From assembly GCA_026388115.1 (NCBI GenBank), contig JAPLKK010000242.1, positions 1 to 45,895 on the forward strand: a stretch of 45,895 bases of DNA, given 5' to 3'. Positions 13,753 to 34,726 of this stretch are shown one piece after another. The notes beneath the pieces are model-generated. The model saw nothing but the letters and a program-made list of their open reading frames with translations. It had not been told where the DNA came from and searched no databases. The DNA is from Elusimicrobiota bacterium. Lineage in GTDB: Bacteria; Elusimicrobiota; Elusimicrobia; UBA1565; JACRDR01. The position numbers and the translations under genes were made by a program. How positions within the stretch are numbered: the stretch's first letter is position 1; each line of letters opens with the position of its first letter.

Positions 13753-14544
13753 GTGAGAAGCGTTTCCGCGAAAAACCTCTTCGTGGCCGCGCTCGCCGGT
13801 CTTCTATGCGGGACGGCGGGAGAGACTCTGCTTTTCCTGGAGGCTCAAGTGCGGCGGCTGGAGCGGTCCCTGGCCGATGAGTTCCGCATCGTGCTCTTCT
13901 CGGCCGGCGAGATGAAAGACGCCGAGCGCGCCGGCGTCGAGGCGTTGTTGCGCAAGCTCCCGGGCACCGATCAGGCCCGCTTCATCTCCCGCGACGAGTC
14001 GCTGGAGCGCCTGCGCCGCCAAGACCCGGAGCTGGTCCGGGCCGTGGCCCTGCTGGGCGAGAACCCCTTGCAGTCCGCGTGGGAGGTGTCGTTGACGCCC
14101 GAGGCGATGGGCGGCGCCGGGGAATGGGCCGAGAAGGCGGCGCGCATCCCGAAGGTGGGCGATATCCGCTTCAAGCCGATGCAGGTGCACGCCGCCGTGC
14201 GCTGCCAGTTCTACGCGCGCTTCTTGCACTTGGCACTCAGCCTCCTGGCCTTCTTCTGGCTCGCCGGCGCCGCCGCCGCCTTGTGGGCGGCCTTGAGCTG
14301 GCCCGAGGCCCGGGGGGTCCTCGAAAATCTTCTGCCCCGCCTCGCCATGGCCGGCGTCGGCGCGGCGGGGGGGATGGGCATCGTGTTCCTCGCCACCCTC
14401 CCGCTGAAGTCGTCGCCGCTGGCCTGGGCCGCTCCGACGGAGGCCGCGCAGGGCCTTTTGTTCGTTGCGGGGCTCTTCGGTTCTCTCTTCGCTTGGGACT
14501 GGGTTCACGCGTCGCATCCGCACCACGCGGCCCACCCGCACTAA
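13753..14544 (+). CDS. ftsX: FtsX-like cell-division membrane protein
   Basis: 263 residues from GTG 13753 (a TTG nine bases upstream is possible, but the promoter geometry favours GTG). TM1 is near residues 9-27. An extracytoplasmic domain of about 130 residues follows, with the FtsX-type alternation EFRIVLFSAGEM, RFISRDESLERLR and PLQSAWEVSL. Three further membrane segments lie around 155-175, 195-215 and 230-250. The tail is His-rich (HPHHAAHPH). FtsX with the FtsE ATPase transmits a signal across the membrane to activate a peptidoglycan hydrolase, normally through the EnvC-like protein encoded immediately after it, as here. No ftsE is visible; the upstream neighbour is the unrelated amylase. 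The stop TAA shares its last base with the next gene's ATG. Confidence 0.85.
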   Translation: MRSVSAKNLFVAALAGLLCGTAGETLLFLEAQVRRLERSLADEFRIVLFSAGEMKDAERAGVEALLRKLPGTDQARFISRDESLERLRRQDPELVRAVALLGENPLQSAWEVSLTPEAMGGAGEWAEKAARIPKVGDIRFKPMQVHAAVRCQFYARFLHLALSLLAFFWLAGAAAALWAALSWPEARGVLENLLPRLAMAGVGAAGGMGIVFLATLPLKSSPLAWAAPTEAAQGLLFVAGLFGSLFAWDWVHASHPHHAAHPH

Positions 14545-15737
14545 TGGTGGTGACAGCCATCAACTTATTCAACTTTCTCGACTCGAGAAAGTTGAATAAG
14601 TTGATGGCTGTCACCTTGCTGTTTTTCGCGCCGCGGGCCGGCGCGGAGGACCTCGCGGCCAAGCGCCAAGAGCTCATCGACGTGCAGAAGCAGCTCGAGA
14701 CGAAGAAGCGCGAGATCGACGAGGCTCGCAAGGAGGAGAACGCGCTCGAGCACGACGTTTCGCGCCTGAAGGACGCGTCCAGCGAGGCGCGCCGCCGGCT
14801 CGATGCGATACAGGAGCGTATCCGCGACGCCGAGTCGAAAAAATCGGGACTCCGCTCGCGCCTCGGCGCCCTTCATCTGGCCGAAGGCTCCTGGCGCGGG
14901 GTGCTGGCCGACGAGCTGCGCGGCTACGTGGCGTCCTCCGACGACGACGTCTCGTTCTATGGCGCGCGCGGTGTCTGGGAGGAGGAGTTCCGCCGGCAGG
15001 CGATCTTGGAGAAGCTGCACTATCTGGAGGGCGTGCGCGGCTCGCGCAAGACGACCGAGGCGGCCGAGGCGGAGGCGCGACGGGCCGCGGAGGCGCTGAA
15101 GGCCAAGGGGAAGGGGGCCAAGGCCGACAGCGACACGCGGCATAACGAGGTGCTGCGCGCCCAGCAGTCCTTGCGCGAGACGCATGGGAAGGTCGAGCAC
15201 GCCCAGAAGTCGATGCACGAGCTGCAGGATTCGGCCCTCGCGCTGGCCAGGCTCTTGCGCACCCTTGAGAAGAAATCGCCCTACCGCATCGCCGGCGAGC
15301 GCATGCCGCTGGCCGAGCCGAAGCACTCGCTGCCCTGGCCGGCCGAGGGGAAGGTCGTCTCGACGTTCGGCCGGCATCCGGTCAAGGAGTTCGGCACGGT
15401 GATGATCAGCCAGGGCATTCGCATCGCCACCGGCGCCGGCGCGCCGGTGACGCCCGTGAAGGCGGGCAAGGTGATCTTCGCCGGCCTGTTCCGCTCCTAC
15501 GGCCAGGTGCTCATCGTCGACCACGGACAGGCGTTCTATACGATCTATGGGCAGTTGGGCGAGCTCAAGAGCCGAAAGGGCGAGGACGTCACGCCGGAGG
15601 AGCCGATGGCGGCGGCGGGGGCTCCCTCGCCGCGTCCGGGAGAGCCGGCCGTCGAGAGCGGCGGCGTCGTGTATTTCGAGCTGCGCCAAAGCGGCGAGGC
15701 TCTCGACCCCATGGAATGGCTGCAGCCTGCGCCGTGA
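14544..15737 (+). CDS. EnvC-like murein hydrolase activator (coiled coil + degenerate LytM)
   Basis: 397 residues from ATG 14544, which overlaps the ftsX stop by one base. Residues 2-24 are encoded by a perfect 67-bp palindrome; the hydrophobic core TLLFFAPRAGA then completes a signal peptide. An ATG inside the palindrome (14604) would give a compact alternative starting MAVTLLFF. Residues about 40-270 are a long coiled coil rich in Glu, Lys and Arg. The C-terminal M23/LytM domain (from WPAEGKVVSTFGRHP) lacks the zinc ligands: QGIRIATG replaces the His/Asp motif and YTIYGQL the HxH, while YFELRQ is kept. That pattern fits an activator such as EnvC, not an active endopeptidase. The neighbours ftsX and ctpA agree. 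Confidence 0.85.
   Translation: MVVTAINLFNFLDSRKLNKLMAVTLLFFAPRAGAEDLAAKRQELIDVQKQLETKKREIDEARKEENALEHDVSRLKDASSEARRRLDAIQERIRDAESKKSGLRSRLGALHLAEGSWRGVLADELRGYVASSDDDVSFYGARGVWEEEFRRQAILEKLHYLEGVRGSRKTTEAAEAEARRAAEALKAKGKGAKADSDTRHNEVLRAQQSLRETHGKVEHAQKSMHELQDSALALARLLRTLEKKSPYRIAGERMPLAEPKHSLPWPAEGKVVSTFGRHPVKEFGTVMISQGIRIATGAGAPVTPVKAGKVIFAGLFRSYGQVLIVDHGQAFYTIYGQLGELKSRKGEDVTPEEPMAAAGAPSPRPGEPAVESGGVVYFELRQSGEALDPMEWLQPAP
14549..14615. repeat. perfect 67-bp palindrome inside the envC-like start
   Basis: Two 33-bp arms, exact reverse complements, around a single central C. The ends are GGTGACAGCC and GGCTGTCACC; the middle is AT-rich, unlike the flanking GC-rich DNA. It is fully translated, giving V-T-A at its start and A-V-T at its end. 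Same length, ends and reading frame as the element at 34255. The middle resembles the element at 15757. The perfect symmetry suggests a recent origin or active maintenance. Confidence 0.9.
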
Positions 15738-15756
15738 ACCGCTTCACGGTGTCAGA

Positions 15757-15802
15757 CGTCAACTTATAGAACTTCTGTAAGCGGAAGTTCTATAAGTTGA
15801 CG
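15757..15802. repeat. 46-bp inverted repeat related to the 14549 palindrome
   Basis: Perfect 19-bp arms around an 8-nt loop (TGTAAGCG). The arm sequence CGTCAACTTATAGAACTTC lines up with ATCAACTTATTCAACTTTC of the 14549 element, and weaker similarity (GTGTCAGA) continues outward on the left. This looks like a diverged or shortened member of the same family, here in the envC-ctpA spacer. Its right arm ends in the -35 box of ctpA. Confidence 0.8.
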
Positions 15803-15824
15803 GCTGGGCGCGTCGCCCTATACT
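15797..15824 (+). promoter_or_regulatory. promoter of ctpA: TTGACG-16-TATACT
   Basis: -35 TTGACG (15797-15802) lies within the right arm of the inverted repeat; the -10 TATACT (15819-15824) lies outside it. Spacer 16 bp. A leader of about 18 nt with AAAGGGA precedes the ctpA ATG. Confidence 0.65.
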
Positions 15825-18199: not shown

Positions 18200-18243
18200 A
18201 ACCGGCGCCAGGCACCGCATCCAAGCGGTGCCTGGCTCCGGTT
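18200..18243. repeat. 44-bp hairpin repeat (CCAGGCACCGC...GCGGTGCCTGG)
   Basis: 19-bp arms with a single mismatch around the 6-nt loop ATCCAA: AACCGGCGCCAGGCACCGC against GCGGTGCCTGGCTCCGGTT. It fills most of the tsaD to binding-protein spacer and ends 6 bp before the next start codon. The sequence is unrelated to the GGTGACAG family. REP-like elements of this kind are common in GC-rich genomes; it could also stabilise the tsaD 3' end. Confidence 0.8.
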
Positions 18244-22436: not shown

Positions 22437-22573
22437 GGGCCGCGGCAGATGCAAGTCCGCCGGGGCGTGTGGAGGCCGCCGCGAGCGCACAGCCAACCGC
22501 GGCGGCCGTAACCGAGTGAGCCGCGCCCAAAGCGCGGCGAACGTCCCCGCCGGACTTGCATCCGCCACGGCCC
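22437..22573. other. 137-bp imperfect inverted repeat, foldable to a three-way junction
   Basis: The outer arms (22437-22465 and 22545-22573) pair at 26 of 29 positions. Inside lie two further hairpins: GGCCGCCGCG / CGCGGCGGCC (22474-22483 with 22498-22507, perfect 10 bp) and GCCGCGC / GCGCGGC (22520-22526 with 22532-22538, loop CCAAA). On paper this makes a closed outer stem with two inner helices. It fills the spacer after the PorV-like gene; a T7 run follows about 30 nt later. It could be a structured RNA, a miniature mobile element or an extended terminator. No open reading frame of note crosses it. Confidence 0.7.
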
Positions 22574-31928: not shown

Positions 31929-34244
31929 ATGGAACCTAACCTCCCGGCGCCGTCGACGGGCCCGAAGACGGCGACGACGCAGACGCGGACGCCGGGAAGG
32001 GTCATCGCTTTCTCGGGGCCGAAGGAAGGCGTGGGCAAGACCAGCGTCTGCCTGAACCTCGCCCTCGCGTGGGCCGGCACGCAGAGCCGCAACGTCATCA
32101 TCGTGCACATGGACCCGCTGTGCCGCCAGGACGTGGCGTATCTGCTGGGGGTGCAGCCGCCGTCGTTGGCCAGCCTCGCCCAGACCGTGGGCCACGACGC
32201 GGCGGTCCTCGGCAAGCTGCTGAAGGGCCGCATCCCGATGTCGCAATGGGGCGTCGGCGTGCTGCCCTTGGGCGCCAAGCGCGCCGACGCGCTGACCGTC
32301 AGCCCCGAGATCATCATGCCGATCCTCGGGGCGCTGTCGGAGTCGTACGACCTGTTCATCGACGTGGACCCGTGCTTCCCGATGCAGATCTTCGCCTTCG
32401 ACATCGCGGACCTCGTCTTCTGGATGACCTTGCCCCAGCGCTCGCATTTCGAGGCGACCTACAACCTCTTCAACGACATCAAGGAGCTGCATTTCGCCCT
32501 CGACCGCTTCGAGATCATCGTCAACCAGGCGAACCTGCCCGGGGCTCTCGCGCCGAAGGAGGTCGAGCGGTTCTTCGCGGCGCTGAACAAGCGCGTGCTC
32601 TCGACGATGCCGTGGGAGGACCTGCTTCCCGAGTACTCGAACCTCGGGCGCATCGTGGTCGTGGAGCAGCCGCACTCCGATTGGGTGAAGGCGCTCAGGC
32701 CCCTGCTCGGCCGGCTCATGGAGGTCAAGCCCGCGCAGAAATCGTGGACGTTCACGGCGACCGCCGACTCCGATTTCAACTCCTCGGCCGACAATGTATG
32801 GCGCGCGAAAGGCAACGGCGCCGCGCCGGCCGCCGGGCAGCAGGGCTCCTCGTCCTCCTCCTCGGCGATCAAGGTCGTCAAGCAGGGGGACGTCGCCAGC
32901 GGCAACCCTCCCTTCTGGGACGAGCTCAAGGGGAAGGTCCACAAGAACGTCGTGAGCGCCTTGGAGACCGAGCGCATCCGCATCACCGACTCGGCGGAGG
33001 TGAACAAGGAGCTGCGCGCCAAGGTCGGCCAGATCATCGAGAACCTCCTGCAGAAGGAGGTCAACCTGCCGCTCTCGCGCGACCAGCGCGGCCGCTTCGT
33101 CGGCGAGCTGGTCGACGAGATCCTGGGCTTGGGCCCGCTCGAAGAGCTGATGCGGGACCCGAGCATCAACGAGATCATGGTCAACGCCCCGGACAAGGTC
33201 TATATCGAGCGCGCCGGCAAGCTGGTGCTGACGCCGCTGCGCTTCCGCGACGACGACCAGATCATCCAAGTCATGAAGCGCATCGTCGCCCCCATCGGCC
33301 GCCGCATCGACGAGTCGGTGCCGCTGGTGGACGCCCGCTTGAAGGACGGCTCGCGCGTCAACGGCATCATCGCGCCGCTGGCCGTGTCGGGGCCGACGCT
33401 CACCATCCGGCGGTTCTCGGCCAAGCCCTTCACGGCCAAGGACCTCATCACCAAGGGCTCGATCGCGGCGGACTTCGTCGATTTCTTGAAGGCCTGCGTG
33501 CTGTGCAAGAAGAACATCATCATCTCGGGCGGAACCGGCACCGGTAAGACCACCTTCCTCAACATGCTCTCGAACTACATCCCGGAAGACGAGCGCATCA
33601 TCACCGTCGAGGACACCGCCGAGCTCAAGCTCCAGCAGGACCACTGGGTGCGCCTGGAGAGCCGCCCGCCCAACGTCGAGGGCAAGGGCGAGATCACGAT
33701 CCGCGACCTCGTCAAGAACTGCCTGCGCATGCGCCCCGACCGCATCGTCGTCGGCGAGTGCCGCGGCGCCGAGGCCTTGGACATGCTGCAGGCGATGAAC
33801 ACCGGCCACGAAGGCTCGCTCGCCACCATCCACGCGAACACGCCCCGCGACGCCCTTTCCCGCATGGCGGCCATGTGCCTGATGTCCGGCACCGACCTGC
33901 CGATGTTCGTGCTGCGCGAGATGATCTCCTCGGCCGTGCATCTCATCGTGCAGATCTCGCGCTTCGCCGACGGTACCCGCAAGGTCACCTACATCTCCGA
34001 GGTCACCGGCAGGGATGAGAACCAGATCCTCATGCAGGAGCTGTTCCGCTACCACCAGACGGGGACCGACGAGTCGGGACGGACCCTCGGGGACTTCTCC
34101 GGCTGCGGCGTGCCGCCGAAGTTCTTCGAGGAGTTCAAGCAGAAGGGCATGACCATCCCCCTGGAGCTTTTCTACACGAAGGACCAGAAGGCGCGGATCG
34201 CGGGCGGGATGACGGCGCAGCAGGCGCTTCAGAGGGGAAGATGA
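31929..34244 (+). CDS. tadA: TadZ-TadA fusion: MinD-like ATPase joined to pilus assembly ATPase
   Basis: 771 residues in one uninterrupted frame. Residues about 22-270 are a TadZ/CpaE-type MinD fold with the deviant Walker [10 protein letters not shown] (30-38), [18 protein letters not shown], and [14 protein letters not shown] Ser-rich linker ([12 protein letters not shown]) follows. From about 330 comes a complete TadA/CpaF secretion ATPase: [19 protein letters not shown], Walker [12 protein letters not shown] (about 533-541), the Asp box [12 protein letters not shown], Walker [13 protein letters not shown] and the His box [12 protein letters not shown]. TadZ normally is a separate protein that positions the machine at the pole; here it is tethered to the motor. 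The ATG of the next gene overlaps the stop (ATGA). Both nucleotide sites look intact. Confidence 0.92.
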
Positions 34245-34726
34245 CGATACAGGCGGTGACTGCCAGAGAGATTCGCGAGATTCTCCCGCGGAGAATGTCG
34301 CGAATGTCTCTGGCTGTCACCCTCCTTGTCATTCTTGTCGCGGGAGCACTCTCGCCGGCCGGCGCCCAGTGGACCAACGAGCAGATCAAGTTCCTCGCCG
34401 ACCAGCAGACGGGGGCGGAGGCGCATTCCCAGTATTTCTACCACTACTTCAAGAAGGACCGCGATCCGAACCTCAAGCCGCCCCAGTGGGTGGATGAGAC
34501 GCTCGACGCGATGATCCGCCGGCCGGTCTGGCAGGACCCCGAGGAGGGCATCCTCAACGAGGCCCAGCTGTGGCAGGCGCCGGCCGCGGTGCTCTACGAG
34601 TTCTTCCAACACACGCGCAAGACCTTCTCGCCCGAGCACGGCGGGGCGTTCGCCCCGCCCGGGAGCCTCATCAAGGACTACGAGGACGCCCGCACGCGCT
34701 TCCAGATGGCGCTCGACCGGCTGTAA
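34241..34726 (+). CDS. exported N-terminal segment preceding TadB, probably one gene with it
   Basis: 161 residues from ATG 34241 (ATGA overlap with tadA). Residues about 6-27 are encoded by a 67-bp imperfect palindrome and lead into a hydrophobic core LLVILVAGALSPAGAQ, a signal peptide. The remainder is an unassigned helical domain (WTNEQIKFLADQQTG, LWQAPAAVLYEFFQH, YEDARTRFQMALDRL) ending at TAA 34724-34726. Immediately past the stop, the next frame reads SQDTKRYESCVIAIATL, which continues the helix naturally. This suggests a one-base loss (or two-base gain) has cut a longer TadB-type protein in two. As a separate protein it would be periplasmic. No known family is recognised. Confidence 0.65.
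   Translation: MTIQAVTAREIREILPRRMSRMSLAVTLLVILVAGALSPAGAQWTNEQIKFLADQQTGAEAHSQYFYHYFKKDRDPNLKPPQWVDETLDAMIRRPVWQDPEEGILNEAQLWQAPAAVLYEFFQHTRKTFSPEHGGAFAPPGSLIKDYEDARTRFQMALDRL
34255..34321. repeat. 67-bp imperfect palindrome inside a coding start
   Basis: 32-bp arms pairing at 29 positions around CGC. The ends are GGTGACTGCC and GGCTGTCACC. Same total length and ends as the perfect palindrome at 14549, but the interior is different (GATTCGCGAGATTC). It is translated in the same frame: V-T-A near its start, L-A-V-T-L-L across its end. Two ATGs in the right arm (34295, 34304) could serve as alternative starts. Confidence 0.88.

Follow-up and report, generated by a model that had tools for sequence, protein, structure and literature searches.

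We propose, with a probability of about 0.8, that the 67-nt palindrome at 34255..34321 (+ strand) is a REPIN- or MITE-like non-autonomous copy of a RAYT/Y1 single-strand transposon family of the 'TIRtron' type, which would have landed just behind the start codon of a Tad-operon gene and survived there in the export signal. By the window we mean the whole 45,895-nt stretch of DNA that was analysed, a contig of an Elusimicrobiota genome (G000). The features that concern us are these:

14544..15737, + strand: M23 peptidase (EnvC-like) gene, whose reading frame passes through the sister element
14549..14615, + strand: sister element, a perfect 67-nt palindrome (33/33 arm pairs) within the signal-peptide region of that EnvC-like M23 peptidase gene, which immediately follows an FtsX gene
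15748..15811, + strand: third family member, intergenic, with a degenerate right end, GGTGTCAGACGTCAACTTATAGAACTTC...GAAGTTCTATAAGTTGACGGCTG
31929..34244, + strand: upstream gene, a MinD-like and T2SSE (CpaE-CpaF-type) fusion of a Tad pilus operon
34241..34726, + strand: gene carrying the insertion; its ATG and the TGA of the preceding gene overlap as ATGA, an arrangement common to most relatives
34255..34286, + strand: left arm, which begins GGTGAC; its positions 7, 16 and 25 are mismatched to the right arm
34290..34321, + strand: right arm, which encodes RMSRMSLAVT, a basic n-region that passes into the hydrophobic core; the ATGs at 34295 and 34304 are possible internal starts

The palindrome reads GGTGACTGCCAGAGAGATTCGCGAGATTCTCC-cgc-GGAGAATGTCGCGAATGTCTCTGGCTGTCACC: two 32-bp arms, paired at 29 of 32 positions, around a 3-nt loop. 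Its RNA fold has an energy of -52.8 kcal/mol (z = -11.4), and the end pattern that it has in common with the sister at 14549 (GGTGAC.GCC...GGC.GTCACC, 10-nt ends) was matched 0 times in 100 shuffles of the window. Bearing in mind that no non-family palindrome of comparable score occurs in ~1.2 Mb of G000, we conclude that the palindrome is real and that chance is excluded. An earlier sequence-only reading had described a 67-bp palindrome with the ends and length of the sister, read in the same frame, and this description is accurate: the translations are ...A-V-T-A-R-E-I-R-E-I-L-P-R-R-M-S-R-M-S-L-A-V-T-L-L-V at 34255 and V-V-T-A-I-N-L-F-N-F-L-D-S-R-K-L-N-K-L-M-A-V-T-L-L-F in the sister. Some of the arguments built on it are not upheld. 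The shared length is no constant of the family, since elements in G000 measure 59 to 94 nt. Nor does the shared frame speak for targeting: one frame of every element is stopped by GGTGA, others by GTTGA and TCTGAC in the right arm, and 34255 has two open plus-strand frames, so that the common frame is largely imposed by the sequence itself.

What the earlier reading missed is that the genome holds ~36 related palindromes, the window containing not two of them but three. We searched G000 with the sister element and short arm patterns, and scanned mechanically ~1.2 Mb that was partly chosen for holding matches; many palindromes emerged whose arms are conserved and whose loops, 1 to ~37 nt long, are unrelated. 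Nearly all of the strong palindromes in that ~1.2 Mb belong to this family, hereafter named GGTG after its GGTG...CACC ends, and 34255 is the sole comparable one with a different interior. A covariance model built from 15 elements, 34255 included, returned 71 matches in G000 (which come to the ~36 elements, both strands being counted) and found matches in 25 of 57 genomes, its own among them, nearly all from the same order. Family members are patchily distributed among relatives, one of which (G035) carries ~41. Elements of relatives pair at 26-28 of 28 arm positions and have GGTG ends, differing interiors and usually an 8- or 9-nt internal repeat. Most G000 copies are intergenic. No consistent target-site duplication was found in the element flanks inspected, and no clear duplication was seen in those of 34255.

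The singular interior raises the question of whether 34255 is an independent inverted repeat whose ends match the family by coincidence, which we consider highly improbable. Its interior is indeed unique, with no copies or relatives in G000 or in the 57 genomes searched, and its match to the interior of the sister is marginal (permutation p = 0.05). Against such an independent origin stand the identical 10-nt end pattern, never met in shuffles, the same 67-nt length as the sister, the absence of comparable palindromes outside the family in ~1.2 Mb and the architecture of the arms: the period-9 repeat of the family is present in 34255, at 0.73 in both arms, which places even this odd interior within the family range, though no close copy of it was found. 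The family covariance model assigns 34255 66 bits (E 8e-13 with model R1, 34255 itself being in the training set). Also of interest is that the three arm mismatches of 34255 are spaced exactly 9 nt apart, an 8- or 9-nt internal repeat being found in the arms of nearly every family element. Two other inverted repeats in the window, at 18200-18243 (19-nt arms, 6-nt loop) and 22437-22573 (29-nt arms 79 nt apart), are without family arms.

Evidence that ties the palindromes to a transposon comes from the genes that the same arms enclose. It had been suggested that a REP-associated tyrosine transposase (Y1_Tnp) be sought in the genome, and one was found, bounded by these arms: of two Y1_Tnp genes in G000, that on contig C39 (PF01797) lies inside inverted GGTGTCAGRCCTCAACTTAT arms, in a unit spanning C39:4691-9471. 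This gene is 66 nt inside the arm GGTGTCAGACCTCAACTTATGGAACTTATTT. The RAYT element is interrupted on its right side, where the opposite arm is split by a second transposon (approximately L085:5626-9440, on C39) that has TATGTGGCGAG...CTCACCACATA-like ends and carries two phage-integrase-type recombinases. In the relative G040, a Y1_Tnp gene (PF01797) occupies a 986-bp unit (C16:7685-8670) bounded by GGTGTCAGGCCTCAACTTAT arms. No family arms adjoin the second Y1_Tnp gene of G000 (C170), and a RAYT copy with GGTGAC.GCC ends was not found. Two further contigs, C117 and C127, end within the same arms, as is expected of repeated copies. Given that the same arms bound Y1_Tnp genes in both G000 and G040, the palindromes look like gene-less versions of the Y1 transposon, and on these sequence comparisons the best reading of the GGTG palindromes makes them non-autonomous copies of a RAYT/'TIRtron' transposon.

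The arms have changed in step. The alignment of 15 elements has 27 pairs, of which 14 have changed on both sides, and there are 46 double-change cells against 3 one-side G-U cells, counts that are not independent events, the aligned elements being related; the covariation score is 0.332, compared with 0.081 for shuffled and at most 0.063 for slid alignments. So few G-U steps would favour symmetry kept at the level of DNA, whether by single-stranded recognition or by arm-to-arm copying, over selection on RNA. This bears on another explanation, namely that the element is a domesticated regulator (an attenuator or mRNA stabiliser) that is kept in operons for exported proteins and is not a tolerated insertion. 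Covarying arms and a location between operon genes would suit such a role; on the other hand, the excess of double changes over G-U intermediates is unlike typical RNA evolution, the loops are unrelated, the family is patchy among relatives, and the neighbouring genes, read by eye, are functionally mixed (LepA-, TrmL-, CysS- and RecQ-like). We therefore regard a domesticated regulator as unlikely.

That 34255 is an inserted repeat, as the sequence-only reading had it, is upheld by comparison with orthologs, which keep the ATGA start and are without the element. The gene here has 66 residues before its YHYFK motif, whereas relatives with a coupled start have 42-55, a count that sets aside G016 and G049, which are without a clear coupled start. 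In G001, from the same family, the protein begins MKINRVAALAAVACAFALADARAQW, in place of MTIQ-[element]-LLVILVAGALSPAGAQW here. The palindrome has thus been added in frame directly behind the start codon, for a net gain of ~20-22 residues; since 67 nt is one base more than a whole number of codons, either two more bases must have come in or one dropped out. A similar residue excess is seen in the EnvC-like gene at 14544, if this is read from its first start.

All three arm mismatches fall on third codon positions. The right arm retains the family bases A7, C16 and C25, and the left arm is the deviating side: one change is silent (Thr, ACA to ACT) and the other two (GAC to GAG) replace Asp by Glu. 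The earlier proposal that the mismatches record drift or selection on the protein can be kept in a qualified form, in that the pattern fits drift under protein-level constraint, three sites being few.

The gene start could be read otherwise: the palindrome would be for the most part an untranslated 5' hairpin, translation would begin at an ATG in or after the right arm (34295 or 34304 here, 14603 in the sister gene), and the extra N-terminal residues would exist in the annotation only. We give this possibility somewhat less than an even chance. Right-arm ATGs are present in both start-overlapping copies of the window and in the copies on C61 and C11, and in the latter two the upstream stop, which leaves one codon (C61) or seven codons (C11) ahead of the element, forces the start codon to lie inside it. 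A start at 34295 would yield an ortholog-like signal peptide of 24 residues, the hairpin is very stable (its folding energy is given above), and the REP literature itself cautions that N-terminal REPs may be extragenic (PMC3733652). Weighing against it, the ATGA-coupled start just 5' of 34255 matches that of most orthologs and the frame is open from there through the hairpin; furthermore, left-arm changes confined to third codon positions suggest that this arm is coding.

The copies that overlap gene starts are found at genes of one kind. We classed 30 G000 elements by the position of the plausible start of the next gene, start codons being inferred: inside or ahead of the element, or shortly behind it. 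Six elements overlap a start, every one of them at a gene for an apparently exported protein: EnvC, the Tad gene, TolC/OEP (C61), an LAAC lipoprotein (C11), and the genes on C245 and C71b, which have clear hydrophobic cores. Among genes that start just after an element, 2 of 14 look exported (C87, C218), giving a Fisher p of 7e-4 that is post hoc and rests on small numbers; with membrane protein C112 counted as exported p becomes ~0.002, and C3 was left out as ambiguous. Export was called from hydrophobicity and homology, and gene names without Pfam support were read by eye. The enrichment at signal-peptide genes anticipated earlier thus appears in this genome for start-overlapping copies (6/6 versus 2/14) and is not seen in G035, where none of 25 elements clearly overlaps a start.

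The right arm may offer a reason for this concentration. In its open frame it reads NKLNKLMAVT, NKFHRLMSGT, NRFNKLMSDT, NKFHKLTSDT, NKLQKLTSDT or RMSRMSLAVT, peptides that place basic residues directly ahead of a hydrophobic core, as in the n-region of a signal peptide. At 34255, as at five other exported-protein genes, the export signal probably takes its first residues from the element. Our preferred reading, transposition of a non-autonomous RAYT-linked palindrome, would then run as follows. The Y1 transposase would recognise the folded arm in single-stranded DNA and move the element, for the most part into the DNA between genes; where operons are tightly packed and genes overlap, some copies would come down on or just after a start codon. 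Such copies would survive if the gene product is secreted, since the single right-arm frame that is generally open reads as a basic, often Met-containing n-region before an existing hydrophobic core. At 34255, the ancestral coupled ATGA start would have been kept and ~22 residues added. A stronger proposition, that the mobile palindrome recurrently creates functional signal-peptide starts, its right arm giving both start codon and basic n-region in the generally open frame, so that a copy inserted ahead of a hydrophobic core makes a working export signal, and secretion genes being its safe landing site, we advance tentatively, as a little less probable than its opposite. Insertion into coding sequence also occurs elsewhere: a 64-nt element (L478:1987-2050, on C90 of G000) lies in frame in a PBP1C-like gene, where it separates the transglycosylase domain from the transpeptidase domain, and the G003 ortholog is without most of the 21 element-encoded residues.

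Among known systems, a TIRtron (TIRYT) consists of a RAYT gene between long terminal inverted repeats, and some TIRs form repeated families (PMC3733652). The family resembles them in having Y1/RAYT-type genes bounded by long inverted arms (C39 in G000, C16 in G040), and in that the arms alone are dispersed without the gene, some of them self-complementary (the ~36 in G000, and matches across 25/57 genomes). It departs from them in that the arms, which contain an internal repeat of 8-9 nt, make near-perfect hairpins, and in that interiors differ between subfamilies. The published TIR motif GGGGWSAS, which is common to some TIRs only and not strictly defining (PMC3733652), differs from the G000 ends, GGTG[TCA]C, by one base for the commonest GGTGTCAG type. 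A different palindrome in G040 (L234:5679-5732), which begins GGGGTCAG, fits that motif.

With REPINs and GTAG REPs (PMC3116915, PMC3733652) the family has in common inverted halves that pair into one hairpin with compensatory changes, a RAYT association, an intergenic bias and some copies in genes. In contrast to REPINs, every aligned element begins with GGTG and a GTAG or CGTC tag is absent, copies are far fewer, and a separate REP hairpin in each half is not seen. Rickettsia palindromic elements (RPE) are palindromic repeats that are inserted in frame and translated (summarised in PMC3733652), and are akin in mode of insertion, given 34255 against its orthologs and the C90 gene; unlike RPE, in-start copies here are confined to signal peptides. 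PARCELs are likewise palindromic coding DNA tied to membrane-targeted proteins (PMC2996958); we set them aside as tandem 25-residue protein repeats and not dispersed single hairpins with a Y1 transposase.

In kind, then, the element is ordinary, a RAYT-linked palindromic repeat with some copies in genes; in detail it is unusual, with its GGTG ends, period-9 arms and repeated use at signal-peptide starts. REP-like repeats inside genes were already known (PMC3733652); a recurrent role for them as signal-peptide n-regions did not turn up in the literature searched. The element offers a concrete case of how a selfish hairpin can become part of a protein and leave it intact, points to signal-peptide n-regions as places where such landings are tolerated, and adds to the RAYT-linked palindromes a family with GGTG ends that is spread over a bacterial order. 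Moreover, in-step arm changes with almost no G-U intermediates pose a testable choice between single-stranded DNA recognition and arm-to-arm copying as the means by which the palindrome is kept. Among the matches listed from end-pattern scans of public genomes and viral contigs, almost all are chance ones without paired interiors; partly paired palindromes with GGTGACAGCC ends are present in public genomes at L278:4900-4962 (a Planctomycetaceae MAG) and L345:568-632.
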